A DNA stretch of 64,000 bases from Pseudomonas cichorii (lineage in GTDB: Bacteria > Pseudomonadota > Gammaproteobacteria > Pseudomonadales > Pseudomonadaceae): contig NZ_BLVZ01000004.1 of the NCBI RefSeq assembly GCF_015471405.1, positions 310,001 through 374,000 of the forward strand, read 5' to 3'. A model generated the notes under the pieces. It worked only from the letters and a program-made list of their open reading frames with translations, made no database searches and was not told the DNA's origin. Shown piece after piece: positions 65 to 31,895 of this stretch (positions are counted from its first letter, which is position 1; each line of letters opens with the position of its first letter). The position numbers were made by a program, and so were the translations under genes.

Positions 65-400
65 TCACTCGCGGTCACTGCCGATGTCATCGACCATGGC
101 TCGCAGAAAGCGTCGCAACGCTTTTCTGTCTTCATCTGGAATCAATCGGTACTGCTCAATGATCGTGGCCTCTTCCGAGGAAATGTCCGAGATCTGCCTA
201 ACCCCGGTCACAACGTAGCCAGCATCAATGCCAAGGGAAGCCACGGCGGCAAGATAGGAGGTGTCCGGATTCCGAACCCCCCGTTCATAGCTGCCTTGAG
301 TGTTCCTATTAACACTCCCTGCTTGCGCCAAATCCTCTTGGCTTAGGCCCAGGCGCTCACGTTCTTCACGCAGCCGCTCACCTGGAATTCTTTCATCCAT
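65..400 (-). CDS. XRE-family phage repressor (CI-like)
   Basis: A 111-residue helix-turn-helix protein. Residues 8-62 form an XRE/Cro-CI DNA-binding domain (LREERERLGLSQEDLA, then an NRNTQGSYERG recognition segment). The tail is short and acidic, with no peptidase domain, so RecA-driven self-cleavage is not evident. The ATG at 400 was chosen because the HTH begins right after it; upstream in-frame codons run into the promoter region. It diverges from the Cro-like gene at 512, the usual lysis-lysogeny switch layout. By family it should repress the rightward early operon; that role is inferred. Confidence 0.85.
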   Translation of the reverse strand: MDERIPGERLREERERLGLSQEDLAQAGSVNRNTQGSYERGVRNPDTSYLAAVASLGIDAGYVVTGVRQISDISSEEATIIEQYRLIPDEDRKALRRFLRAMVDDIGSDRE

Positions 401-511
401 TAAATTCGATGCACAACTTTTCAAGCTTTCCCTCTGTACAAGACCAATTTCGCGTGCATAATGACCGTCACTGAACACAAAACACCCCAAACAAACAGGA
501 GTGACCACACT
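401..511. promoter_or_regulatory. Divergent repressor/early-operon control region
   Basis: About 110 bp separate the divergent repressor and Cro-like genes. It holds ATGCAC at 409-414 and its inverse GTGCAT at 454-459, which could be operator half-sites. A clear Shine-Dalgarno AGGAG lies before the ATG at 512. Promoter elements could not be assigned with certainty. Confidence 0.4.
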
Positions 512-733
512 ATGCCCGCGCCAGTTACGCCGGAGCAAGCCCGCAGAGCGCTTGATCGAAAAGGAATGAGCATTGCGGAATTCAGTCGGCTTCATGGTCT
601 GCACAAAAATTTGGTCAGCGACCTTCTCAACGGTCGTATCAAAGGTCGCCGGGGGGAGGCACATCGCGCTGCGGTACTGCTGGGGATCAAAGATGGCGTG
701 ATCGAAAACAGAACCAGCGCCGCCTCACAATAA
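512..733 (+). CDS. Cro-like phage DNA-binding protein (BcepMu gp16-like)
   Basis: A 73-residue protein with a lambda-repressor-like helix-turn-helix at residues 7-45 (TPEQARRALDRKGMSIAEFS, then NLVSDLLNGRIKG), ending GEAHRAAVLLGIKDG. That ending is characteristic of the small phage-associated regulators related to BcepMu gp16. A good AGGAG sits 8 nt before ATG 512, so the longer in-frame extension from 461 is not used. As the first gene of the rightward operon, opposite the repressor, it likely acts as Cro. Specific operators are not known. Confidence 0.75.
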   Translation: MPAPVTPEQARRALDRKGMSIAEFSRLHGLHKNLVSDLLNGRIKGRRGEAHRAAVLLGIKDGVIENRTSAASQ

Positions 734-762
734 CGGCGCTGGCCATCAGGGAGAACTAGAAG

Positions 763-1236
763 ATGAAACGCCAAATTCTAGATGCACGGAAAAAAATGGT
801 CAGTTCGGTTATCCGTAGTTCGGGCGGTATCCGTCTCGCAGCAAGCCGTCTCGGTATGAAGCAGAAGAAGTTTGAAAACCATGCCTTCCAAAACTGTGGC
901 AGCAGCCCTCTGACCGACTTCCAGATCCACCAGTTGGAAAATATGGTCGGAACCACACACTATCCGGCCTACATAGCTGGGATCTATGGGGGATTATTTG
1001 TCCAAGTAGCTGACCCTGAAACACTAGATAACGTCGAGCTATATGCTCGATCTGTCCAGGTCGCAGCCAAGCGCGGCACAGTCGATCAGATCATTGCTCA
1101 ATCGTTGGAAGACGGCTCGATCAGCATGGCCGAGTCCAAGCAGATTTTGAGTGCCCATAAGGACCACATGGCCGCACGGCATGGAGAGGTTTTGGCAGCA
1201 ATCAACCTGTTCCAGGCCCCGGAGTCAGCACAATGA
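763..1236 (+). CDS. CII/YmfL-like phage regulatory protein
   Basis: A 157-residue protein resembling the CII-like phage regulators of the YmfL/Phage_CP76 group. The N-terminal helix-turn-helix-like region is IRSSGGIRLAASRLGMKQKKFENH (residues about 17-40, quoted here for its position), followed by a TDFQIHQLENMVGT segment typical of the family. The C-terminal half is helical. It is the second gene of the early operon and its stop overlaps the next start by 4 nt (ATGA), implying translational coupling. A regulatory role in the lysogeny decision is inferred from the family. Confidence 0.7.
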   Translation: MKRQILDARKKMVSSVIRSSGGIRLAASRLGMKQKKFENHAFQNCGSSPLTDFQIHQLENMVGTTHYPAYIAGIYGGLFVQVADPETLDNVELYARSVQVAAKRGTVDQIIAQSLEDGSISMAESKQILSAHKDHMAARHGEVLAAINLFQAPESAQ

Positions 1237-1598
1237 ACAAGTCCCCCGTAGCCCTGGAGTATCAGGACGTGCTGAAAGCTGCGGCACTTGCCTTTCTGGA
1301 ACGTCACCACTCAGAACACCTGAGCAACGATCAGCAACTTTTCGACCGCACTGTCCAGTATCTGGTTACGGACTACGACGTCCAGAATCAAATGGCCTCA
1401 AGGATGGTTCATCTGGCCTATAGCGACCTGAGTGCGATCAGCGATCGGCAGCGCCTCGATGTCGCCAGTAGCACGGAAACCCATTCTGTTATCACCGACC
1501 CATCAACCGGCCACGCCTGGGCTATCCCGGTCAGCCTGATCTACGAACGCATCATTAACGCCCCCGACAACGGGCGCTACCGCATTACCAACTCGTAA
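1233..1598 (+). CDS. Hypothetical phage-associated protein
   Basis: A 121-residue soluble protein that I do not recognise. It starts inside the CII-like stop codon (ATGA overlap), so it is almost certainly translated from the same transcript. The sequence is helical in the first 70 residues, then has a short beta-rich tail with a SLIYERIINAPD motif. No catalytic motif, cysteine cluster or membrane segment is visible. Its place between the CII-like regulator and the replication protein suggests an early function, nothing more specific. Confidence 0.65.
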   Translation: MNKSPVALEYQDVLKAAALAFLERHHSEHLSNDQQLFDRTVQYLVTDYDVQNQMASRMVHLAYSDLSAISDRQRLDVASSTETHSVITDPSTGHAWAIPVSLIYERIINAPDNGRYRITNS

Positions 1599-1669
1599 TT
1601 CCCCTTAATCATTCCCTGCCCCGTTTGCCGTGGGTTTGGGTGAGCTATGCCCGAAATCGAGGTTTCACG

Positions 1670-1903
1670 ATGGGAAACGCCGTTGTTATCAGAGCTGAAC
1701 TGGCCCCGGCCGAGGCAACAGCACTGCTCAAACTGTTGAAGGCTAGCTACAGCCTGGCCCTTGCCGAGCACTGGTACGACGACGCCTACCGAACCGTAAA
1801 TAACCAAGAACGCCACACCGTAATTCTCATGAAAAACCCTGCAATGGCCGCGCAAAAGCGGTTGATAGGCGCACTCGCGCATAGCCTGAAGACAGTGAAG
1901 TAA
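1670..1903 (+). CDS. Small hypothetical phage-associated protein
   Basis: A 77-residue protein starting at ATG 1670 behind a GAGG ribosome site; an upstream in-frame ATG at 1625 lacks one. It is alanine/leucine-rich and predicted helical in the middle (PAEATALLKLLKASYSLALA), with a basic end. There is no recognisable domain. It ends 5 nt before the primase-helicase start, so it is in the same operon and may be translationally coupled to it. Confidence 0.6.
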   Translation: MGNAVVIRAELAPAEATALLKLLKASYSLALAEHWYDDAYRTVNNQERHTVILMKNPAMAAQKRLIGALAHSLKTVK

Positions 1904-1908
1904 TCGAA

Positions 1909-4608
1909 ATGATGGAAGCGAATATCCGTGATCAAGTGCTGAAGTATTTGGAGGATGACTACAACCTCAAGCACAAAACTAATGGAGCCAACTACATGCG
2001 CGGCGGCGAGTGTCCCAGTTGCCGCCAGAAAGAGTTGTACGCACGTTATGACAATCCTTATCAGATTCGCTGCGGACGCCCTAGATGCGGCCTGATCGAG
2101 GACGTCAAGGACATCTACCCTGACCTATTCGAGGACATGAGCAAGCGAGCACCTGCAACTGAGGAAAACCCTACCGCTACAGCACGGGCCTATCTGGAAT
2201 TTATCCGTGGGTTTGATGTTGGAATGATCGGTGCCTGGTTCACCCAAGAAACGTACGTCAATTACGAAAATCGCGACACGTCTGCAACAGTGCGTTTTGA
2301 AATGCCCAATGGTGGGTATTGGGAACGACTGATCGACCGGCCTGCACGCTTCGGCAAAATGAAGGCGCGCTTCAAGCCCCAGTACAGCATCGCGGGCCAG
2401 TGGTGGTGCCCACCTGACACTGACTTGGCCACGGAGAAAGAACTGTGGATCGTGGAAGGCGTGTTCGATGCAATCGCCCTGGGATTGAACGGGGTCAAGG
2501 CTATATCGGCCATGACCAGCACCAACTATCCCGGAGAAGCGCTGAAGGCATTGGCAGAACAGCGCAAGGGTGATCTGCCTACGCTTGTGTGGGCACTGGA
2601 CAACGAACCTACGGCCCACGTTTACCTGATGCGTTGGGTGAAACAGGCCCGTGAACTCGGCTTCACATGCCGGGCAGCACTAGTACCGCAGCGCGGCAAA
2701 AAGAAAGTGGACTGGAACGATCTACATCTGCGCTGGAACTTTGAGGAAAAAGGCGAAGCACGCGACAAGCGACGTGAGCGTGACCTGGCTGCTGCCCGTC
2801 ACGAAGGAAAGCTGCTGCTGGCCCCTACGCCAAGGGAAAAGGCGCTGCTGATGTACACCTGGGATGAGACAAATTCGGAGTTTGCCCTGGAGTTTGGTCA
2901 CCAGACCTATTGGGCCAAGTTCGACCTATCCAAGCTCGATGATGAGCCAACCGATCCCAAGGACCACGACGAACAGCTGATAAGTGATAGGGAAGCCAGG
3001 CGCAAGGCCTTGGAAAAGGTCTGCACACTCAAGCTACTGGCTAACTGCCGATTCAACACATTGTACAAGCAGGTCAATGATGTAACCGGCGACGCCTGGT
3101 TCTACGTGTGCGTAGCGGGATCTCAGGATGAGAAGGATGAAAAAATCACCTTCACTCCCAAACAGATTTCCTCAAGCGGCGAGTTCAAGACTCGCCTGAT
3201 GTATGCCGGCGCTACCTGGCTCGGAACTCAGAAACACCTTGACCAGATCATCATGCGCCAGACCGAAGGACTGCGTACGGTCGAAACCATAGACTTCCTA
3301 GGCTACAGCAAGGAACACAAGGCCTACATCTTCAATGACATCGCGATCCACAGCGGCAGCGTGTTCAAGGTCAACGATGAGGACTACTTTGAATTCGGCC
3401 GGAAGCGGGTCAAGTGCCTGATGCGGTCGGTGAAGGTGAAGATGGCCATTGATGCGAAAAACTACCGTGATGACTGGTTGAGCAATCTGTGGCTGTGCTT
3501 CGCAGAGAACGGCCTGCTGGCAGTTACTTATTGGTTTGGGTCGTTGTTCGCAGAACAGATCAGGGACGAATACGAAAGCTTTCCGTTCCTTGAGATGTCG
3601 GGTGAACCGGACTCAGGCAAGACGACACTTATCAAGTTTGTGTGGAAGCTGTTCGGGCGGCTCTATGAGGGATTCGACCCCGCCAAGACGTCAACGTCTG
3701 GCCGGAGCCGAGCCATGGGCCAAGTATCCAATCTTCCCCTGGTCTTGTTGGAAGCCGACCGGAACACCGACGCAGATAACGCAAAGTCATTTGAGTGGGA
3801 CGAGTTCAAGGATTTCTACGGCGGCGGACTTTTGCGCACTAGAGGTGTGAAGACCAATACCAACGACACCTACGAACCACCATTCCGGGCAGCAATTGTG
3901 ATCGCTCAGAACGCCATAGTTACGGCCCACGAAGCGATCATAAGCCGTATCGTCCGACTCCCGTTTATGAAGCCACAAATCACCGAGGAGAGCAGAGCTG
4001 CGGCTGATGCCCTGGTGCAGACGGACCTGGACACAGTGAATCACTTCATCGTCAAGGCCATGAAATCCGAGTCCAAGGTAATGGCGCGATTTGCCGAGAT
4101 GTACCCCAAATACCGAACAGAATTGTGGGCCTCTCGCAAACTGTCATCAGACCGGGTGATTCGGAACCACAGCATGATGTTGGCCCTGGTGGACTGCTTA
4201 CAGCTTGTGCTGCCAGTACCTGACCACATGGTCCAAGCGACACGCAAATACCTGCTCGCGATGGCGAACGAGCGGCAAGCAGCGATCACTACAGACCCTA
4301 AAGAGGTGAACGAGTTCTGGCAGTTATATGACTACCTGGAAAGCCTCACAGATCAGCCTCTGGTCAATCACAGCAAAAAGCCTGGGCTGATTGCGATCAA
4401 CCTCAACCAGTTCGCAGAGGTGGCCCACGAACACCGGCAGAAGCTTCCGGACTTGGGTGTTCTGCGCCGGCTACTGAAGGACTGCCGAACACATCCGCTA
4501 ATCGATACAAGCCGCCGTGTGGAAAGCCAGATCCGGGCGAACCAGCAAGCTCTGACGCCACTCGCCCCCCTTCCAGCAACGGTTCGTTGCTTCGTATTCA
4601 AGGAGTAA
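1909..4608 (+). CDS. Phage/satellite primase-helicase (zinc finger, Toprim, P-loop ATPase)
   Basis: An 899-residue replication protein. Residues 35-60 hold four cysteines (C35, C38, C55, C60) resembling a DnaG-type zinc ribbon. A Toprim primase core follows, with the invariant glutamate in VEGVFD (E183) and the acidic pair at LDNE (D231). The C-terminal third has a Walker A motif GEPDSGKTT (565-573) and Walker B LVLLEAD (to D617), i.e. a helicase-type ATPase. Primase fused to ATPase is typical of phages and satellites that replicate autonomously after excision. The intervening 300 residues show no motif I know. It is the largest gene of the early operon. Confidence 0.85.
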   Translation: MMEANIRDQVLKYLEDDYNLKHKTNGANYMRGGECPSCRQKELYARYDNPYQIRCGRPRCGLIEDVKDIYPDLFEDMSKRAPATEENPTATARAYLEFIRGFDVGMIGAWFTQETYVNYENRDTSATVRFEMPNGGYWERLIDRPARFGKMKARFKPQYSIAGQWWCPPDTDLATEKELWIVEGVFDAIALGLNGVKAISAMTSTNYPGEALKALAEQRKGDLPTLVWALDNEPTAHVYLMRWVKQARELGFTCRAALVPQRGKKKVDWNDLHLRWNFEEKGEARDKRRERDLAAARHEGKLLLAPTPREKALLMYTWDETNSEFALEFGHQTYWAKFDLSKLDDEPTDPKDHDEQLISDREARRKALEKVCTLKLLANCRFNTLYKQVNDVTGDAWFYVCVAGSQDEKDEKITFTPKQISSSGEFKTRLMYAGATWLGTQKHLDQIIMRQTEGLRTVETIDFLGYSKEHKAYIFNDIAIHSGSVFKVNDEDYFEFGRKRVKCLMRSVKVKMAIDAKNYRDDWLSNLWLCFAENGLLAVTYWFGSLFAEQIRDEYESFPFLEMSGEPDSGKTTLIKFVWKLFGRLYEGFDPAKTSTSGRSRAMGQVSNLPLVLLEADRNTDADNAKSFEWDEFKDFYGGGLLRTRGVKTNTNDTYEPPFRAAIVIAQNAIVTAHEAIISRIVRLPFMKPQITEESRAAADALVQTDLDTVNHFIVKAMKSESKVMARFAEMYPKYRTELWASRKLSSDRVIRNHSMMLALVDCLQLVLPVPDHMVQATRKYLLAMANERQAAITTDPKEVNEFWQLYDYLESLTDQPLVNHSKKPGLIAINLNQFAEVAHEHRQKLPDLGVLRRLLKDCRTHPLIDTSRRVESQIRANQQALTPLAPLPATVRCFVFKE

Positions 4609-4613
4609 GGGAT

Positions 4614-4904
4614 ATGCACATTCAACTTATCCCCGCTTGCGAAGGCATCGCCCGACTCAAAGCCACCCAAAAGCACCTTGAAACCAGAGGTGTCGATACA
4701 CGAATCATCAATGCAGAAGCTTATAGCGACCAAGGCCTGCTAGTGATCATGGATGTAGTAGTAAGCAGCGGACATAGAACACTTCTGGTTGATAGCTGCA
4801 CGAGAGGGCAGATCGATGCGGTTTTGATCTGGCAGTCAGAAACAGAGGATTGCGTCGATTTTAAAGACCTTGTGATTCACCTGGTCCGAAAGGATCAGAC
4901 ATAA
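4614..4904 (+). CDS. Small hypothetical phage-associated protein
   Basis: A 96-residue protein that starts 5 nt after the primase-helicase stop, behind an AAGGAGTAAGGG ribosome site that overlaps that stop. It has alternating beta strands and helices (MHIQLIPACEGIARLK, then LLVIMDVVVSSG and TLLVDSCTRGQIDAVLIW). No catalytic motif is recognised. Tight coupling to the primase suggests a replication accessory role, but this rests only on position. Confidence 0.6.
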   Translation: MHIQLIPACEGIARLKATQKHLETRGVDTRIINAEAYSDQGLLVIMDVVVSSGHRTLLVDSCTRGQIDAVLIWQSETEDCVDFKDLVIHLVRKDQT

Positions 4905-4992
4905 ATGAGCATCGGTTAACGCCGGATCTGATCAGAAATGCAGAGTACCAATACCAACTAACGTAACGCCAAACCACGAAGGGAGAAATATC

Positions 4993-5313
4993 TTGACTGC
5001 AAAAACAAATGCTACAGAAAAACCAATTACCAAATTCAAGAGCCAACTTTTCTATTTGGAAAGAGCACATGAAGAACTTTCTAAAGCGAAAGGAGATCTT
5101 GAGAGAGAGATAACAAAAGCTATCAATAGCTTTGACGCAGCTCGGGATGCAGCGAAGGGGTTCGGGAAAGAAATTCCTGAACGGTTCATGTCTGGCCAGT
5201 GGTTATTTGATTTTGGCAAGAACGGTGAGTTGAACGTTACGGAGATTCAGAACTGCGAGCCGTATCAACTTCTAGAGCTTGCACGATCAATGGGTGAGGA
5301 GGACCCGGTGTAG
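4993..5313 (+). CDS. AT-rich small hypothetical protein, possible moron gene
   Basis: A 106-residue protein beginning at TTG 4993, 2 nt after a GGGAGAAATA ribosome site. Residues 20-52 form a long charged helix, probably a coiled coil (LERAHEELSKAKGDLEREIT). The first half is visibly AT-richer than flanking genes and it is set off by 88 nt upstream and 79 nt downstream, unlike the tightly packed operon. That pattern fits a recently acquired accessory (moron) gene. I do not recognise the family; an anti-CRISPR or other host-interaction role is possible but unsupported. Confidence 0.55.
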   Translation: MTAKTNATEKPITKFKSQLFYLERAHEELSKAKGDLEREITKAINSFDAARDAAKGFGKEIPERFMSGQWLFDFGKNGELNVTEIQNCEPYQLLELARSMGEEDPV

Positions 5314-5392
5314 CAGTTTCTTAATAGAGTTGATTAGAACGGTGCCGAGGAGGGGCAACTCCCCGGCACCAACCACCACTGAGGGCAACACG

Positions 5393-5659
5393 ATGAAAGC
5401 ACAGCACCAAAGCGGCAGCGATGCGAAGGCTACCACAACACCAGATCAGCAAGCGGTAACACCTGCACGTCGCCTTATGGCCATACGGATCGTCGGCACG
5501 GCGCTATTCGACTACCAGGTGCAAAAAACACCTGTTACCCGGATCCGCCTCGAATGCCTGACCAGCATGGCTCAAGCCCAAGGTGACCTAACTGCGAGCG
5601 ATGCGGCCATTGTGGCCCAACTGCTGGCCAACCCGTTTCACCCCGGAGCACAAGCATGA
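5393..5659 (+). CDS. Small hypothetical phage-associated protein
   Basis: An 88-residue protein starting at ATG 5393 behind GAGG; the longer in-frame extension from 5279 overlaps the previous gene and has no ribosome site. The N-terminal 25 residues are polar and low in complexity (Q, T, S). The rest is a compact helical segment ending in LLANPFHPGAQA. No family is recognised. It overlaps the following gene by 4 nt (ATGA). Confidence 0.5.
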   Translation: MKAQHQSGSDAKATTTPDQQAVTPARRLMAIRIVGTALFDYQVQKTPVTRIRLECLTSMAQAQGDLTASDAAIVAQLLANPFHPGAQA

Positions 5660-6261
5660 GCACAAGCTACTTCTACAAGACCCAAGCCCCCTGCCCGGTC
5701 GCTATCATTGAAGAGTTCCATGCATCCAAGGACTTGTTTCTCAGGGCCTTAGAAACACTTGGCCAGCAATTTGGCGGGGAAGTCGCACCTATGCGCGATA
5801 TCACGTCGAACTTCGCCGGTGGTGTGAAACTCAGTGCTGGCCAAGGGCATGACGTTCATTGGCGTCTACCGGACGAATATGGCTATCGAAGCCTCCGGGT
5901 AGCAGCAAGGCTCCCCAAGGGGTCAACGAAGGAAGATCGCACAGCAGCCCGATCTGAACACCAGCGTTTGCTTGACCTTTGGCAAGCATACTGCCCTAGC
6001 CGTCTATCGATTCACGATACTTGGGATCGCTTAAACATCAACACAGGCAACCTGCTGCTGTGCGGCGGCATCTTCTTTATTCACGACAGCAGCGCTTTTT
6101 TTGAACTTGGGTTTCAAATCAATGAAGTCATGCACGCCCAAAATATTGCGACCGGTAAGCCATCAGCAGGCTGGATAGAGGGTGCGGTCGAAATCACCTC
6201 AAGCGACTACCAAGCAGCACGATCAGCCAATCAGCAGGCAAGGAAGGTTGCCAAAACCTAA
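5656..6261 (+). CDS. Hypothetical phage-associated protein
   Basis: A 201-residue soluble protein, translationally coupled to the preceding gene through an ATGA overlap. It has a mix of strands and helices (MRDITSNFAGGVKLSAG, then HWRLPDEYGYRSLRVAARLP) and a polar alanine/glutamine-rich C-terminus. No signal peptide, membrane segment or catalytic signature is visible. It lies in the accessory part of the element, between the replication gene and the integrase. Function unknown. Confidence 0.6.
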   Translation: MSTSYFYKTQAPCPVAIIEEFHASKDLFLRALETLGQQFGGEVAPMRDITSNFAGGVKLSAGQGHDVHWRLPDEYGYRSLRVAARLPKGSTKEDRTAARSEHQRLLDLWQAYCPSRLSIHDTWDRLNINTGNLLLCGGIFFIHDSSAFFELGFQINEVMHAQNIATGKPSAGWIEGAVEITSSDYQAARSANQQARKVAKT

Positions 6262-6330
6262 ACCTCACTCCGGCTGCATATAAAAATCGATATAAACCCA
6301 ATCTTTTAGTTTTAACAGAGAGTCCATTCT

Positions 6331-6639
6331 ATGACGTCTATTGCTCAAAAATACTTAAATATTGCTCGGGAAGCACAAGTCATATCTAACGACACTATCC
6401 AGTCAAAGATAAGAAACTCTCGGGAAGCTGATAAGTTCGTCATCAGGTATCCGGATGGAATGCGTGAAGAAGTTCATAACGCCTCTGTAGATCAGTACAT
6501 CAGCATGAACACATTCGTCATCCAGGCCATAGCTGAAAAACTTGACCGCCAAAAACGTCAGGACCTACTTCTTGATGCTCTTGCACAAGCAGTAGCATCG
6601 GCTCAGAAAAGACCAGGACATAGTGAGGGCCAAGCATGA
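6331..6639 (+). CDS. Arc-like ribbon-helix-helix DNA-binding protein
   Basis: A 102-residue protein. Residues 33-66 (KFVIRYPDGMREEVHN, then SMNTFVIQAIAEKL) match the Arc/MetJ ribbon-helix-helix pattern: one beta strand that dimerises and reads DNA, then two helices with the SMN-type turn. The N-terminal 30 residues and C-terminal helix are additional. An AGAGAG ribosome site precedes ATG 6331. The gene is AT-richer at its start than its neighbours. It is probably a transcriptional regulator of the element; its target is unknown. Its stop overlaps the next start by 4 nt. Confidence 0.65.
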   Translation: MTSIAQKYLNIAREAQVISNDTIQSKIRNSREADKFVIRYPDGMREEVHNASVDQYISMNTFVIQAIAEKLDRQKRQDLLLDALAQAVASAQKRPGHSEGQA

Positions 6640-6842
6640 CTCTCTCTCGTACTCGGCCAGCGATGGCCAGCAAGCGGCTTGATCTACCCAGTATCTGCGA
6701 CATATGTGGGTTCGCACGCTCAACACGTCGCCACATGGGATGCAGCAAAATAAGGCAGCAGCGGAAAAACGAGGAATGGGCAACGGTGATGGCCAACCAA
6801 GCTGCAGCCCGTGCAACCAGAGAGAAACGCTATGCACGCTGA
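6636..6842 (+). CDS. Small cysteine-rich protein, possible zinc finger
   Basis: A 68-residue basic protein overlapping the Arc-like gene by 4 nt. Residues 21-36 carry CDICGF, then a downstream HMGC, giving a plausible C-x2-C / H-x2-C zinc knuckle, followed by a basic helix rich in arginine and lysine. That arrangement fits a small nucleic-acid-binding protein. Overlap with genes on both sides argues it is translated. The family is not recognised. Confidence 0.5.
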   Translation: MTLSRTRPAMASKRLDLPSICDICGFARSTRRHMGCSKIRQQRKNEEWATVMANQAAARATREKRYAR

Positions 6843-7146
6843 ACTGCCAAACGGCGATGCAGATCTGCTTGTTTCAATCCAAAATCTGATCCGGCAACTG
6901 CAACGCCCAGCGGTGACCGCTGAAAACGAACTATGGACATCGCAAGATATCGCCGCCTACTTGAAACTTTCGACCTACACGGTTGAACGTAGAGTCGTGG
7001 TTCAGCCAGGCTTTCCGGTAAGCATGCAGCCTTGTGCCACTGGCGCGAAAGCTGCAAAGCGGTGGTTTGCTGGAGAGGTGATTACCTGGTTGCGACAACA
7101 CAGAGCCAAGTTGCCCGTTGCCAGGCGATTGCGACAGCCAGCGTGA
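6832..7146 (+). CDS. AlpA/excisionase-like helix-turn-helix protein
   Basis: A 104-residue protein starting at ATG 6832 after AGAGAG, overlapping the previous gene. Residues 36-85 form a MerR-like winged helix of the AlpA/excisionase type (WTSQDIAAYLKLSTYTVERR, then AKRWFAGEVITWL), with the usual tryptophan near the end. It is the last gene of the rightward operon and converges on the integrase, where a recombination directionality factor is expected. AlpA proteins can instead activate integrase or excision genes, so the exact role is open. Confidence 0.65.
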   Translation: MHAELPNGDADLLVSIQNLIRQLQRPAVTAENELWTSQDIAAYLKLSTYTVERRVVVQPGFPVSMQPCATGAKAAKRWFAGEVITWLRQHRAKLPVARRLRQPA

Positions 7147-7152
7147 AGAAAG

Positions 7153-7179
7153 AAGCCTGCGGATCTCGCAGGCTTTTTT
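7153..7179. terminator. Bidirectional rho-independent terminator
   Basis: A hairpin with AAGCCTGC and GCAGGCTT arms around a 7-nt loop is followed by a T-run at 7173-7179 and preceded by an A-rich stretch. It sits exactly between the convergent AlpA-like and integrase genes, so it can end both transcripts. Confidence 0.85.
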
Positions 7180-8176
7180 ATCCCAATCGCTCGGCCACCT
7201 CCGATGCGGTGGCGTTGTAATAGATCATCAACGACTTCAGATCTTTGTGCCCGGTCATGCGGGCCAAGTCCAGTACATCGATCTTACGAGCGAGCCGGGT
7301 AATAGCCTCATGCCGTGTATCGTGGAAAGTCAGTCCATCGATCCCCAGTTCGTCACGGACCCTGCGAAACATCGTATCCGCTGAAGCTGACTCAAGCCGG
7401 AACAATCGATCATTCGGCCCCTTCCCCTTGTACAACGGCTCCAGCAACTCGCACGCACGCTTGCTGAGCGGTACGTTACGACTTGAACCGTTTTTCGTTT
7501 TGGGCAGCCGAACAAAGCGCTCTCGCAGATTCACCCACTTAGCGGTCATGCCCAATATCTCCCCCTGCCTCATGGCGGACTCAATGGCAATCAAGAAGGC
7601 GTAGGACAGTTCCTGCATCAGTGTCACTGGCGCTTGACCCTCGACATGGCCCAACCTGTTGATCAGTGCACTGATCTCACCTGGAGCAACACGTCGCTCG
7701 CGGGGCGGCCCGTTGCTCGGGCGCTTTGCGTCACGAACTGGATTGGCCAAACATACCTTCCACTCCAGCCTGGCGATTTCAAATACGGATGAAAGCAAAG
7801 TCATCTCGCGCCGAACAGTAGCAGTCTTGACTACCTTCAAGCGTGCATCTCGCCATTGGGCAACTTGCTCAGAGGTGATACGTTCCATCAGATCACCGAC
7901 CCACTCCAGCTCTCTGTCAAACCGATCAAGTCGCAGCTCTTCCCAGCGCTGACCAGCCTTTGTTGGTGAAACATCAAGCTTGTAACGACGTAATGCCTCA
8001 GAGAGAGTCATCGACACAGTTAAACGCGACTTCCCGCACTGAGCCATGATCTCTACCTCGCGAGCGGTCGCCCAAGCGACGGCCGCAGCCTTGGTGTCGA
8101 ATGTCTGAGAATCCCGCACGCCTTGCTTGGCCACCTCAGCCCGCCACCCACCACTTCGCTTTCTATACGAAGCCAT
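7178..8176 (-). CDS. int: Tyrosine recombinase integrase
   Basis: A 332-residue phage-type integrase. The N-terminal part is an arm-binding and core-binding SAM-like region. The C-terminal catalytic domain shows the expected residues: R203 (AMRQGEILGM), H285 and R288 (FHDTRHE), H310 (TGHKDLKS) and the nucleophile in MIYYNA (Y319 or Y320). All are intact, so the enzyme is probably active. ATG 8176 was chosen because AGGAGG lies 7 nt upstream on the minus strand; the longer frame to 8215 has none. It should catalyse integration and, with a directionality factor, excision of this element. Confidence 0.95.
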   Translation of the reverse strand: MASYRKRSGGWRAEVAKQGVRDSQTFDTKAAAVAWATAREVEIMAQCGKSRLTVSMTLSEALRRYKLDVSPTKAGQRWEELRLDRFDRELEWVGDLMERITSEQVAQWRDARLKVVKTATVRREMTLLSSVFEIARLEWKVCLANPVRDAKRPSNGPPRERRVAPGEISALINRLGHVEGQAPVTLMQELSYAFLIAIESAMRQGEILGMTAKWVNLRERFVRLPKTKNGSSRNVPLSKRACELLEPLYKGKGPNDRLFRLESASADTMFRRVRDELGIDGLTFHDTRHEAITRLARKIDVLDLARMTGHKDLKSLMIYYNATASEVAERLG

Positions 8177-8324
8177 TGCACCCTCCTGGCGTAAAAATGG
8201 CGTAAAGGCTACCACGCAGTTGCAAGATCCTGCCGTCTATGGCCAAAACCAAACAGCTCCGATCCCCAGAGTAGCCGGGCGTTTCACCCAATTGCAGCAT
8301 TTGGTACTTTTCTGCTCAGAAGAT

Positions 8325-8921: not shown

Positions 8922-9430
8922 CTTCACTGCCGTATAGGCAGCTTAGAAAAACCTGGAGGACGCCAACCTGAGCGGCGCCTACTTCACTGCCGTATAGGCA
9001 GCTTAGAAAGGCGAGGATGAGTGGCAGTTCGCAGGCTGGTGCTTCACTGCCGTATAGGCAGCTTAGAAAATCCACGGCGCTGATACGCCCGCCGTTGGCG
9101 CCTTCACTGCCGTATAGGCAGCTTAGAAAATATGTTGATGTGGCACGACCAGCCCGCGTGTCTTCACTGCCGTATAGGCAGCTTAGAAATTGGTGTCAGG
9201 GTCGCGATCTGAAGCGCCCCACTTCACTGCCGTATAGGCAGCTTAGAAACATATGGCTAGGCGGGCGTCGCCGAACGACATCTTCACTGCCGTGTAGGCA
9301 GCTTAGAAACAGCTCCGAATCACCGCCAGGCGCTCGTGCGATCTTCACTGCCGTGTAGGCAGCTTAGAAAAGGCCGAGGCCGCAGAACGGCACAGGAAGC
9401 GCCTTCACTGCCGTGTAGGCAGCCCAGAAA
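8922..9430 (+). CRISPR. Type I-F CRISPR array 1 (9 repeats, 8 spacers)
   Basis: Repeats of 28 nt start at 8922, 8982, 9042, 9102, 9162, 9222, 9282, 9343 and 9403, with spacers of 32 nt (one of 33, 9310-9342). The repeat begins CTTCACTGCC, has a loop GTATA or GTGTA, then GGCAGCTTAGAAA; CTGCC/GGCAG is the Cas6f stem. The last three repeats carry the GTGTA loop and the final one is degenerate (CCCAG for CTTAG). That places the leader end on the left, agreeing with the leader found there. The CTTAG ending separates this array from the other four (CTCAG). Confidence 0.98.
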
Positions 9431-10951: not shown

Positions 10952-11120
10952 GCAGTGATTGAAACAGGCATCGAACGGCCAGCAGTTGCCACGTCTCGCA
11001 GTGCGCGTTAGTCTCCGCGCCGTTCGCTGCAAAATCAGCGGCCGGGTTTGACGATCCGATCTATCCAGGCGTATCAGCGTCTCCCCCACTGCCTCAGGCT
11101 TACGCTTGAAGTACGTGTTA

Positions 11121-11196
11121 TGGCGGCTGTGCGTCGGAGACCTTCGGGTCTGCCGGTTTCCTGGATACCGGTTCGTCAACCTTCGCACAGCTGCCA
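11121..11196 (+). ncRNA. C4-like antisense RNA upstream of antirepressor gene
   Basis: A multibranched RNA fold. The outer stem is 11121-11133 with 11184-11196 (13 pairs, with one G-U that pairs only on the plus strand). Inside are a UUCG-capped hairpin (AGACC TTCG GGTCT, 11138-11151) and a second hairpin (CCGGT 11153-11157 / ACCGG 11167-11171) whose loop exposes TCCTGGAT. That loop is complementary to ATCCAGGA at 11234-11241, covering the Shine-Dalgarno of the BRO gene. TCGTCAA (11173-11179) is complementary to TTGACGA (11206-11212). Two such paired segments are the hallmark of phage P1/P7 C4 RNA, which silences the antirepressor. Confidence 0.8.
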
Positions 11197-11205
11197 CCCA
11201 TTCGT

Positions 11206-11242
11206 TTGACGACGTTGTTTGGCAGCTTCAATCATCCAGGAG
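11206..11242 (+). promoter_or_regulatory. Antisense target and ribosome site of the antirepressor
   Basis: TTGACGA (11206-11212) and ATCCAGGA (11234-11241) are exact complements of unpaired segments of the C4-like RNA just upstream. The second includes most of the AGGAG ribosome site (11238-11242) that serves ATG 11251. Pairing would block translation initiation. Confidence 0.7.
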
Positions 11243-11250
11243 CTACGCCG

Positions 11251-11781
11251 ATGTACCCCCTCAATCCCTCTGCGCCCTGCACAGAACAATTTGAAGCCCT
11301 CGTTTTCAACCGCCATCACCGCGCATTGCGTGCCGTCGTGTGTGACGCTCAGGCATGGTTTTGTCTGGCAGACCTTGCGCGCCTGATGGGCAAGAAGCTG
11401 GACGAACGCGCCACCCTCAAGCTCGACCCGGATCAACGTCGCACAGCCTGGCTGCAAGCCCATGGCCGTTGGGAAAAGTGCGTGCTGCTCAGTGAATCCG
11501 GTGTGTTTGCGATGCTGGTTCACCATTACATCCCCGAAAACCGCGCCTTGCGTCACTGGCTGACTCATGACGTGTTGCCGGTTTTGCATCAGCAACATGC
11601 GGTCACGGGCGATCAACCGTGCCTGAATCAGATGCAATGGTTCGGCAATGCCCTGAGCGTATTGCAATGGCGTAACGAATCATGGATTCGGTTTCGGGAT
11701 ATGCCACATGTGGTGATGGAGGTCCCGCCGCAGCCCAGGCAAGGAATGTGGCGCAAGGTTTGGGGCGCGTTTGGTAGCTGA
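11251..11781 (+). CDS. BRO family phage antirepressor-like protein
   Basis: A 176-residue protein with an N-terminal BRO/Ant domain. Residues about 8-105 hold FEALVFNRHHRALRAVV, then AWFCLADLARLMGK, a SESGVFAMLVH segment and RALRHWLTHDVLPVL, the last being the family signature. In phages these proteins bind and inactivate CI-type repressors. The C-terminal 60 residues are less conserved. AGGAG 8 nt before ATG 11251 sets the start. It is an orphan gene here, carrying its C4 control RNA but no other phage gene, and lies between two facing CRISPR arrays. Confidence 0.85.
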   Translation: MYPLNPSAPCTEQFEALVFNRHHRALRAVVCDAQAWFCLADLARLMGKKLDERATLKLDPDQRRTAWLQAHGRWEKCVLLSESGVFAMLVHHYIPENRALRHWLTHDVLPVLHQQHAVTGDQPCLNQMQWFGNALSVLQWRNESWIRFRDMPHVVMEVPPQPRQGMWRKVWGAFGS

Positions 11782-11812: not shown

Positions 11813-12322
11813 TGCCTTCACTGCCTTATAGGCAGTGAAGTCGATTGCCGGACGGCGACATTCATCCGGTGATTTTCTGAGCTGCCTATACGGCAGTGAA
11901 GCCGCCCTGGTAAGCAGCAGCGTGTCATTCGTTTTTCTGAGCTGCCTACACGGCAGTGAAGTCATGGGCACCACCCTACTGCTGGCCGAGGCCTTTCTGA
12001 GCTGCCTACACGGCAGTGAAGTTACGGCTCTCAGGACTGTGCGATTTGAATCTTTTCTGAGCTGCCTACACGGCAGTGAAGGCAAGTGGAAGGCGACAGC
12101 ATGCAGGGTGCGGTTTCTGAGCTGCCTATACGGCAGTGAAGCTGCTGCTGTTCTTCGGGGGTGATCCTGAACATTTCTGAGCTGCCTATACGGCAGTGAA
12201 GGCGGCGGGCTTCATCTTCACTTGAGGCTGACTTTTCTGAGCTGCCTATACGGCAGTGAAGACAGACAACTCATACCGGTCGCAGCTTTGGTCGTTTCTG
12301 AGCTGCCTATACGGCAGTGAAG
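11813..12322 (-). CRISPR. Type I-F CRISPR array 2 (9 repeats, 8 spacers)
   Basis: Read on the minus strand, repeats begin CTTCACTGCC and end GGCAGCTCAGAAA. Plus-strand repeat starts are 12295, 12234, 12174, 12114, 12054, 11994, 11934, 11874 and the degenerate terminal 11813. Spacers are 32 nt except two of 33 (12262-12294 and 11841-11873). Loops are GTATA in the four leader-proximal repeats, GTGTA in the next three, and GTATA at 11874. The terminal repeat has become a perfect palindrome (CTTCACTGCC TTATA GGCAGTGAAG). The leader lies on the right. Confidence 0.98.
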
Positions 12323-12629: not shown

Positions 12630-12657
12630 CTTCACTGCCGCATAGGCAGCTCAGAAA
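12630..12657 (+). CRISPR. Solo I-F CRISPR repeat, no leader or spacer partner
   Basis: A single intact 28-nt repeat in plus orientation (CTTCACTGCC, loop GCATA, GGCAGCTCAGAAA). It lies about 10 bp after a REP element, with no second repeat on either side and no leader. The stem CTGCC/GGCAG is intact, so Cas6f could cut it if transcribed. It is probably the remnant of a lost or rearranged array, or a repeat carried in with a REP. Confidence 0.8.
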
Positions 12658-21657: not shown

Positions 21658-22045
21658 TTTCTGAGCTGCCTATACGGCAGTGAAGTCGCGGCGCTGAGAG
21701 CGCAGCTTCGTTGGGTCTTTCTGAGCTGCCTATACGGCAGTGAAGTCGCGGGTTTTTTATTGCCTGGAGAATCGCATTTTCTGAGCTGCCTATACGGCAG
21801 TGAAGACTGTGAAACAGTTCCGAGAATATTTGACTTGTTTCTGAGCTGCCTATACGGCAGTGAAGCGTTGGGTACGTCTGCCGCTGCCCGTGCCATTTTT
21901 CTGAGCTGCCTATACGGCAGTGAAGCCCGCGCCGCGTAAGCGCCGCCTGACCTGAAATTTCTGAGCTGCCTATACGGCAGTGAAGAGGTTGGTAAGGCGG
22001 TCGCCCCGGAACTGCCATTTCTGAGCTGCCTATACGGCAGTGAAG
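21658..22045 (-). CRISPR. Type I-F CRISPR array 3 (7 repeats, 6 spacers)
   Basis: Seven identical repeats on the minus strand, at plus-strand starts 22018, 21958, 21898, 21838, 21778, 21718 and 21658, with six 32-nt spacers. All have the GTATA loop and CTCAGAAA ending and none is degenerate. The natural leader-distal end therefore appears to be missing, having been cut and joined to the inverted remnant at 21577-21652. The leader is on the right, back to back with that of array 4. Confidence 0.98.
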
Positions 22046-22557: not shown

Positions 22558-22825
22558 CTTCACTGCCGTATAGGCAGCTCAGAAATTTCCAAAGTTCGAT
22601 AGACACAACGGAAAGTCCTTCACTGCCGTATAGGCAGCTCAGAAAGCTTGGATGGGCCAACCGTTTCAATGCAGATGCTTCACTGCCGTATAGGCAGCTC
22701 AGAAACGAGCGCGGCAAGCCGCTTGCCGGTGGGGTCTCTTCACTGCCGTATAGGCAGCTCAGAAATACGACCCGGTCACTAACGGTCATCTGCTCTGATT
22801 AACTGCCGAACAGGCAGCTCAACAC
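22558..22825 (+). CRISPR. Type I-F CRISPR array 4 (5 repeats, 4 spacers)
   Basis: Repeats start at 22558, 22618, 22678, 22738 and the degenerate 22798, with 32-nt spacers. Loops are GTATA and endings CTCAGAAA. The last repeat (AACTGCCGAACAGGCAGCTC core) has lost both ends, as expected of the oldest unit. It is oriented toward cas1, which starts about 310 bp downstream. Confidence 0.97.
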
Positions 22826-31566: not shown

Positions 31567-31895
31567 GGTTTGGGCTGCCTATTCGGCAGTGAAGATGCAG
31601 GCGCTCGGAGCTTCCCGAGATGCATCTTTTCTGAGCTGCCTATTCGGCAGTGAAGGATAGAGGCTCGTCAGCCCGCGGCGCCGCAATTTTCTGAGCTGCC
31701 TATTCGGCAGTGAAGTGACCAAGCCCAAGCGAGGTGGTACAGCAGATTTTCTGAGCTGCCTATTCGGCAGTGAAGTCAGAGTTGCGCAAGTGCTTGGATG
31801 ATGTGATTTTCTGAGCTGCCTATTCGGCAGTGAAGGGGGGTAACGTCAATGCCTTGGTTGAGCAGGATTTCTGAGCTGCCTATTCGGCAGTGAAG
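31567..31895 (-). CRISPR. Type I-F CRISPR array 5 (6 repeats, 5 spacers)
   Basis: Minus-strand repeats at plus-strand starts 31868, 31808, 31748, 31688, 31628 and the degenerate 31567. Spacers are 32 nt except the oldest (33 nt, 31595-31627). The repeat differs from all other arrays in its loop, GAATA instead of GTATA or GTGTA, with the same stem and CTCAGAAA ending. The array runs toward the end of csy4. The leader lies on its right. Confidence 0.97.

Follow-up and report, generated by a model that had tools for sequence, protein, structure and literature searches.

C4 is known as an RNA of the phages P1 and P7; in P1, where it is a substrate of RNase P, it silences a gene for lytic growth. 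In the annotated P1 record, the elements follow one another in the order a1, b1, C4 (77 nt), a2, b2, icd, and ant. P1 C4 is described as binding the ant mRNA around the ribosome site by base pairing and blocking its translation (PMC12197685) and as required for full repression of ant (PMC8198154). In Salmonella prophage Gifsy-1, the isrK-orf45-anrP transcript adopts an inactive fold, and the short IsrK RNA activates translation of the antirepressor-like gene anrP in trans (PMC4825925). Weinberg et al. 2010 (PMC2864571) list C4 and its upstream element for Proteobacteria/gamma-Proteobacteria and phages, and C4 is annotated beside isrK in a genome of Xylella fastidiosa (PMC12189769).

Here, a stretch of 64,000 nucleotides of a Pseudomonas cichorii genome (hereafter, the window) was analyzed, which very probably holds a chromosomal RNA switch of the C4 type that has the layout of the P1 immI operon and silences a BRO gene. 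A first-pass annotation, made from the letters alone, had proposed a C4-like RNA with two complementary segments in front of this gene. All of its coordinates proved correct when rechecked against the sequence, and a covariance search with the Rfam C4 model (RF01695) placed a plus-strand match at 11116-11201 (79.4 bits; gathering score, 45; E value, 6.5e-14). At the level of sequence, membership of the C4 family is thereby established, and we infer that the RNA is produced and silences BRO. The features of the module are as follows.

10986-11014, plus strand: promoter-like hexamers TTGCCA (10986-10991) and TAGTCT (11009-11014) with a 17-base spacer (sequence pattern)
11008-11062, plus strand: putative c4-a1b1 element, a hairpin and then a second hairpin displaying a1 (Rfam RF03163, slightly below the gathering score)
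11048-11054, plus strand: upstream target a1, TTGACGA, complementary to C4 11173-11179 (census, 113/126 copies)
11062-11069, plus strand: upstream target b1, TATCCAGG, complementary to the C4 loop at 11160-11167 (census, 59/126 copies)
11116-11201, plus strand: C4 antisense RNA (Rfam match, 79.4 bits)
11159-11167, plus strand: C4 loop segment, b' in P1 naming, TCCTGGATA (read from the sequence)
11173-11179, plus strand: C4 second segment, a' in P1 naming, TCGTCAA (read from the sequence)
11206-11212, plus strand: downstream target a2, TTGACGA (census, 111/126 copies)
11234-11241, plus strand: downstream target b2, ATCCAGGA, overlapping the AGGAG ribosome site at 11238-11242 (census, 72/126 copies)
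11251-11781, plus strand: BRO gene, 176 amino acids, Bro-N domain, antirepressor-like (Pfam PF02498, PHROGs)

Judging from the alignment with the P1 RNA, the mature C4 would extend from about 11122 to 11198 and, like the P1 RNA, would be 77 nt long. Its outer stem (11121-11133 with 11184-11196) comprises 13 pairs with a single G-U (G11125-U11192); as the reverse strand would have mismatched C and A at this place, the whole stem forms on the plus strand only, which had been pointed out in the first pass and was borne out from the sequence. The predicted fold of 11122-11196 has an energy of -42.3 kcal/mol. All 8 nt of the loop TCCTGGAT (11159-11166) are complementary to b2, and all 7 nt of the second segment, TCGTCAA, are complementary to a2, so the two pairings claimed earlier are both exact. 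C4 and all four of its targets lie on one strand within a span of about 195 bases. The two-segment logic and the placement agree with the annotated P1 record, as had been suggested.

The promoter-like site and the upstream a1/b1 pair had been absent from the earlier description; with them, the window shows the regulatory arrangement of the P1 immI operon. The window matches RF03163 ("a1, b1 targets of C4 antisense RNA") with 44.7 bits, slightly below the gathering score of 46.7 (E value, 3.2e-10), and a1 and b1 are situated within or next to this match. The orthologous locus of Pseudomonas capsici (L085) scores over the cut-off (53.3 bits), and that of a P. cichorii relative is absent from the list of matches over the cut-off. 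A weak match of the a1b1 element to the isrK model was obtained as well (E value, 0.0056). In a census of 126 C4 copies from five genomes, which takes in one match below the cut-off (genome G100), the pattern TTGnnn-(15-19)-TAnnnT was found 5' of the hairpin in 77 of the 98 copies that have a hairpin anchor (mean of shuffles, 2.65), the 28 copies lacking this anchor being omitted. A terminator-like hairpin followed by a T run lies between a1/b1 and C4 in 12/126 copies, for example at L051 and L041 (strict pattern; mean of shuffles, 1.65), and this terminator is likely to be real in the subset that carries it; such copies look as if a short IsrK-like a1/b1 RNA were made. With the same strict pattern, no intrinsic terminator was found between b1 and C4 in the window copy. 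Attenuation, or a short IsrK-like RNA, was therefore dropped from the main explanation.

The gene behind C4 is of the BRO antirepressor type, as the first-pass annotation had it: its product matches PF02498 with an E value of 1.2e-9 (39.1 bits; cut-off, 25.6) and the anti-repressor families of PHROGs with a best E value of 1.9e-11. No PDB sequence match was found at E values up to 0.1. BRO proteins and antirepressors head the viral fold matches of the predicted structure, which is of low confidence (pLDDT, 61.7), and for this reason the action suggested for BRO is drawn from its sequence families. Once made, the protein would most likely inactivate a repressor-type regulator; a phage repressor would be the plain reading of the family, and a host regulator is a possible target.

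Named relatives of the BRO protein occur in P. capsici (89% identity) and P. cichorii (81%). Both orthologous loci retain C4, a1, b1, and both downstream pairs, and 129/135 and 133/135 bases of C4 plus leader, respectively, are identical to those of the window. BRO itself is under purifying selection (dS of 0.51 and 0.92 against the P. capsici and P. cichorii orthologues; dN/dS, 0.11). At a locus whose BRO protein is 59% identical (L058), TCGCTAA/TTAGCGA stands in place of TCGTCAA/TTGACGA; both sides of the second pair have changed together, which is co-variation. Conservation of the two pairs in relatives, on which the first pass had staked its reading, thus takes the form of retention in close relatives and co-variation in more distant copies.

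The locus resembles P1 immI (RF01695, RF03163) in the fold, the two segments, candidate a1/b1 targets upstream and a2/b2 downstream, the closeness of b2 to the first gene's start codon, and the antirepressor-type gene. It differs in being chromosomal, with at least 25 copies in one genome, whereas P1 is a phage; in having BRO directly after C4, whereas icd separates C4 and ant in P1; and in that most of its Pseudomonas sister copies precede DUF6124 or DUF3077 genes instead of antirepressor genes. Gifsy-1 isrK-orf45-anrP likewise has an antirepressor-like gene behind an upstream element, to which the weak isrK match of the window corresponds, and its translation is off by default, as is proposed here (PMC4825925). 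In contrast to the window, Gifsy-1 is a resident prophage with a leader ORF, orf45, and a switch centered on IsrK, and PMC4825925 makes no use of the term "C4 RNA."

The order of the window's elements, from promoter through a1/b1, C4, and a2/b2 over the ribosome site to the target gene, is that of the P1 immI operon. By analogy with P1, the single promoter would give rise to one RNA carrying both C4 and the BRO gene, and C4 RNA would be cut from this common transcript. Its two exposed segments would bind a2 and b2, blocking the loading of ribosomes on BRO and keeping the gene silent. The upstream a1 and b1 may compete for the same segments of C4 and thus set a threshold or permit relief. Where silencing failed, the Bro-N protein would be made and a repressor-type regulator most likely inactivated.

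To place the window's copy among its relatives, C4 was counted in genome samples. The window's genome contains at least 25 C4 matches, all above the cut-off (a lower bound, since scoring covered 150 of the 1405 first-look candidates), and four further genomes, with 150 candidates scored, contain at least 35 (one below the cut-off), 30, 14, and 22 copies. At least one C4 over the cut-off was found in 274 of 298 Pseudomonas genomes with 14 candidates scored per genome; since many genomes reach all 14, the per-genome counts are lower bounds. Across the phylum, with 10 candidates scored per genome, C4 exceeded the cut-off in 60/398 genomes and, counted by genus at the E-value limit, occurred in 41/212, again as lower bounds. 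No C4 was found in 14 well-known control genomes. At C4 loci outside the genus (L089, L093 to L112, L114, and L115), the same pairing is mostly retained in front of varied small ORFs; by eye, the gene at L106 is AntA-like and that at L112 is Bro-N-like.

Sixteen of the 25 copies in the window's genome, the window copy not among them, have a flank in common with a C4 locus in G018, a genome from another species, so most copies occupy shared, probably inherited sites; in this count, the flanks of two own copies that lie 300 bases apart (L008 and C8:293979) overlap. ORFs in the flanks were called mechanically and 17/98 were excluded by hand, leaving 81. The Pfam families listed for them, 25 of 98, belong to metabolism and regulation and include no integrase, capsid, or terminase. 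Against PHROGs, the 81 ORFs matched 38 families at E values up to 1e-10; a kinase, an NAD-dependent DNA ligase, and a ParA-like protein are named among the 25 families listed, and phage is not singled out. A tandem pair of C4 copies before one DUF6124 gene was found in two species, in the window's genome (L046; G000:C8:293979 and 294284) and in G018 (L193). In the window's genome, the loop sequence is identical in both members of the pair, and the upstream C4 has no leader of its own.

The pairing between C4 and its leader was analyzed by determining the longest perfect complement of each of the 126 C4 copies with its own leader and with all other leaders. A complement of at least 7 nt between the loop segment and the downstream leader, including the ribosome site, was present in 72/126 own combinations and in 5.0% of swapped ones; for the second segment and the downstream leader, the corresponding values were 111/126 and 8.2%. 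Against the upstream region, the loop segment reached this length in 59/126 copies (swapped, 5.5%) and the second segment in 113/126 (swapped, 13.6%). None of 20,000 permutations reached the observed total at any of the four target sites, and in the window's genome alone (25 copies), none of 100,000 leader permutations reached the downstream total for either segment. Because permutations among sister copies never reach the observed totals, chance pairing is excluded. The loop-to-ribosome-site match is shorter than 7 nt in 54/126 copies, and in 7 copies neither downstream pairing is present (less than 7 and less than 6 nt). Six of these 7 have no usable ORF behind them, as expected if pairing persists only where something remains to be silenced; as counter-evidence, 12 of all 18 copies lacking a usable ORF retain a pairing, although several of the latter have a short leader ORF.

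The summed duplex energy is best for the own leader within its genome in only 63/126 copies, and for the window's C4 it is -26.9 with its own leader and -25.9 with the next best. Strictly private addressing was rejected on these grounds, and we accordingly claim specificity but not orthogonality. A possible third pairing, in which the 3' arm of C4 would bind a part of the leader resembling GGCAGCT, was rejected as shared consensus, since the own mean (5.42) is barely above the swapped one (5.26) and 832 of 20,000 permutations reach the own value.

A clear downstream ORF is present behind 108/126 copies. The 18 copies without a usable one, several of which are followed by a short leader ORF and then by further genes, were omitted from the family counts. 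At Pfam E values up to 0.001, DUF6124 was matched by 74 of the 108 target proteins, Bro-N by 18, and DUF3077 by 15, where one protein may fall into both the DUF6124 and the DUF3077 counts. Against PHROGs, the largest family had 18 matches, which equals the Bro-N number, and the named families were anti-repressors save for one HNH endonuclease match. In the window's own genome, the other C4 copies mostly lie before DUF6124 genes, and some lie before BRO, DUF3077-like, or QslA-like genes. Conversely, by hand comparison in this genome and G188, 33 of 38 DUF6124 matches (14/15 and 19/23) stand directly behind a same-strand C4. DUF6124 is nearly absent outside the genus, with matches in 3 of 200 phylum genomes, two of which are in the genus and the third of which is marginal. 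For one DUF6124 protein, a two-helix hairpin was confidently predicted (pLDDT, 90.5); the model has no PDB fold match at E values up to 0.001 and the protein no PDB sequence match at E values up to 1, so function does not follow from the fold. DUF6124 was named in no paper found by our literature search, which also returned no paper on multicopy chromosomal C4 in Pseudomonas or on C4 together with DUF6124, DUF3077, or QslA.

C4 is not universal for Bro-N genes. Among BRO genes from other Pseudomonas whose products are about 45 to 50% identical, 21 of 24 loci (L061 to L084) had no match to the C4 DNA profile, an absence that is not firm because the profile, which derives from C4 copies of Pseudomonas, has less power than the Rfam model.

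QslA (PF18226) is the LasR antiactivator of P. aeruginosa and a brake on quorum sensing. Genes of this family occur in 32 of 149 genus genomes. Fifteen of 30 QslA loci, namely, the 13 best scoring, the one in the window's genome, and a weak one, were searched with Rfam. C4 was found before 11 of the 13 best-scoring loci and before the window genome's own (L140), with the same kind of pairing as at BRO, while none was found in front of the weak locus; in the remaining 15 (among L116 to L145), the C4 DNA profile matched at 3 (L141, L142, and L144) and missed at 12. C4 lies about 430 bases 5' of the QslA domain at L116 to L126 and L140. At the 11 best-scoring loci with C4, the order is C4, a leader peptide of 28 to 30 amino acids, an overlapping ORF of 80 to 91 amino acids, and the QslA-type ORF, whereas L140 has the leader peptide and then one longer ORF. 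Operons of this kind, with C4, leader peptide, and overlapping ORFs, recall c4-icd-ant of P1. QslA differs from the window's gene in that it is unrelated to Bro-N, is the third operon gene behind the leader peptide, and in its weaker members mostly shows no C4 with the DNA profile. In the available text of a paper on QslA (PMC6068238), the word "antisense" occurs only for a primer.

The surroundings of the module contain CRISPR arrays and an integrative element.

65-8215: small integrative element, satellite-like, with an integrase, an HTH gene of repressor type, and a gene resembling a Toprim primase (annotation)
8922-9430, 11874-12322, 12630-12657, 21658-22045, 22558-22765, and 31628-31895, both strands: CRISPR arrays of one repeat type in both orientations, plus one solitary repeat (Rfam CRISPR-DR4)

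In the first pass, the RNA had been described as silencing an orphan BRO gene and as trapped between CRISPR arrays, and the module as either a phage remnant or a switch kept by the host, which might derepress prophages, for example the element at 1 to 8 kb. The position itself was confirmed by a repeat scan, with repeats on the plus strand at 8923-9404 and on the minus strand at 11874-12295, but neither "orphan" nor "trapped" marks the copy as special, given at least 25 copies in the genome and repeats at only 1 of the 24 own C4 loci scanned, the window's. A functional tie to the arrays, with C4-BRO acting for instance as a guard or regulator of CRISPR-Cas, might be read from this position and from the relatives, as an array stands directly 5' of the DUF1835-C4-BRO block in the P. 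cichorii relative and two repeats stand directly 3' of C4-BRO in P. capsici. The upstream array and the DUF1835 gene are absent in P. capsici, which has the window's downstream neighbors, whereas the P. cichorii relative has its upstream ones and no downstream array within 6 kb; both arrays together were found in neither species within 6 kb on each side. Defense-system models applied to the 108 target proteins gave nothing except one stray match. Such a tie is therefore very hard to credit, and the placement looks incidental, since the other 23 scanned loci have no repeats and the neighborhood varies by species. According to PMC6068238, some P. aeruginosa strains carry an 8.4-kb insert with CRISPR-associated genes adjoining qslA; a gene of a C4-linked kind again adjoins CRISPR-Cas there, possibly by coincidence.

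The arrays also enter the remnant explanation, in which a phage or satellite integrated between them and decayed until the remainder was lost. C4 and Bro-N are phage hallmarks, and C4 is still carried by mobile elements: the two phage records checked with Rfam, satellite phiAH14b (L239; 3957-4043, 89 bits) and P. aeruginosa phage Phipami28 (L240; 3001-3086, 75.8 bits), contain it. The integrase-bearing element, with a repressor-like gene annotated at 65-664, ends at 8215, about 2.9 kb 5' of C4, although no C4 match over the cut-off was found inside it. Beside the CRISPR arrays, the annotated genes at 9.7 to 16.1 kb encode DUF1835, BRO, a protein with no family, TauE, and a hydrolase, and there are no further phage genes among them. 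DNA similar to C4 plus leader occurs in 26 of 50,697 phage records, the two checked ones included, and searches of phages and plasmids gave distant relatives only; the highest-ranked BRO relative in a phage shares 31% identity across 67% of the query, and none of the 637 phage records with a match reaches 60%. A decaying remnant is also at odds with purifying selection on BRO, a leader almost invariant across three species, and at least 25 copies whose listed neighbor families are of host type. Because most copies precede non-phage gene families, we consider an origin as a remnant improbable and a host-kept switch likely. A more serious competitor, if still an unlikely one, concerns the mechanism: the C4 hairpin might never be released and might act in cis by alternative folding with a1/b1 or a2/b2, as modeled for Gifsy-1 isrK-orf45-anrP. 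The location of C4 and all targets on one strand within about 195 bases would suit this, as would the weak isrK match and the inactive fold of the Gifsy-1 RNA, which IsrK activates in trans (PMC4825925). In P1, by contrast, the annotation gives C4 as an RNA of its own, 77 nt long, and C4 is described as acting on the ant mRNA by base pairing (PMC12197685). Moreover, ACC or GCC follows the outer stem in 119/126 copies, resembling the end of a tRNA, and such an end is not obviously needed by a pure cis switch. We thus favor a C4 RNA that would be released from the transcript and silence BRO by pairing.

The window's element belongs to a family known from Rfam, within which its setting, copy number, and targets set it apart. 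Collectively, these findings raise the prospect, with the balance of evidence about even, of a dispersed Pseudomonas C4 regulon, in which a phage immunity RNA was taken over by the host and now, in 14 to 35 copies found per genome in the five genomes, most of which have their own pairing code, forms a standard silencer before small regulator-blocking proteins (BRO, QslA-type, and DUF6124/DUF3077). If this is true, DUF6124 and DUF3077, which are helical hairpins by model, would be a large unrecognized class of host anti-regulators. As a multicopy chromosomal fixture with mostly non-phage targets, C4 ceases to be a curiosity of phages and becomes a candidate for a regulatory system of the host. 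It provides an initial clue to how DUF6124 is controlled and places QslA-family genes in operons behind C4, and the copies constitute natural sets of parallel antisense switches within one cell, whose cross-talk is directly measurable.
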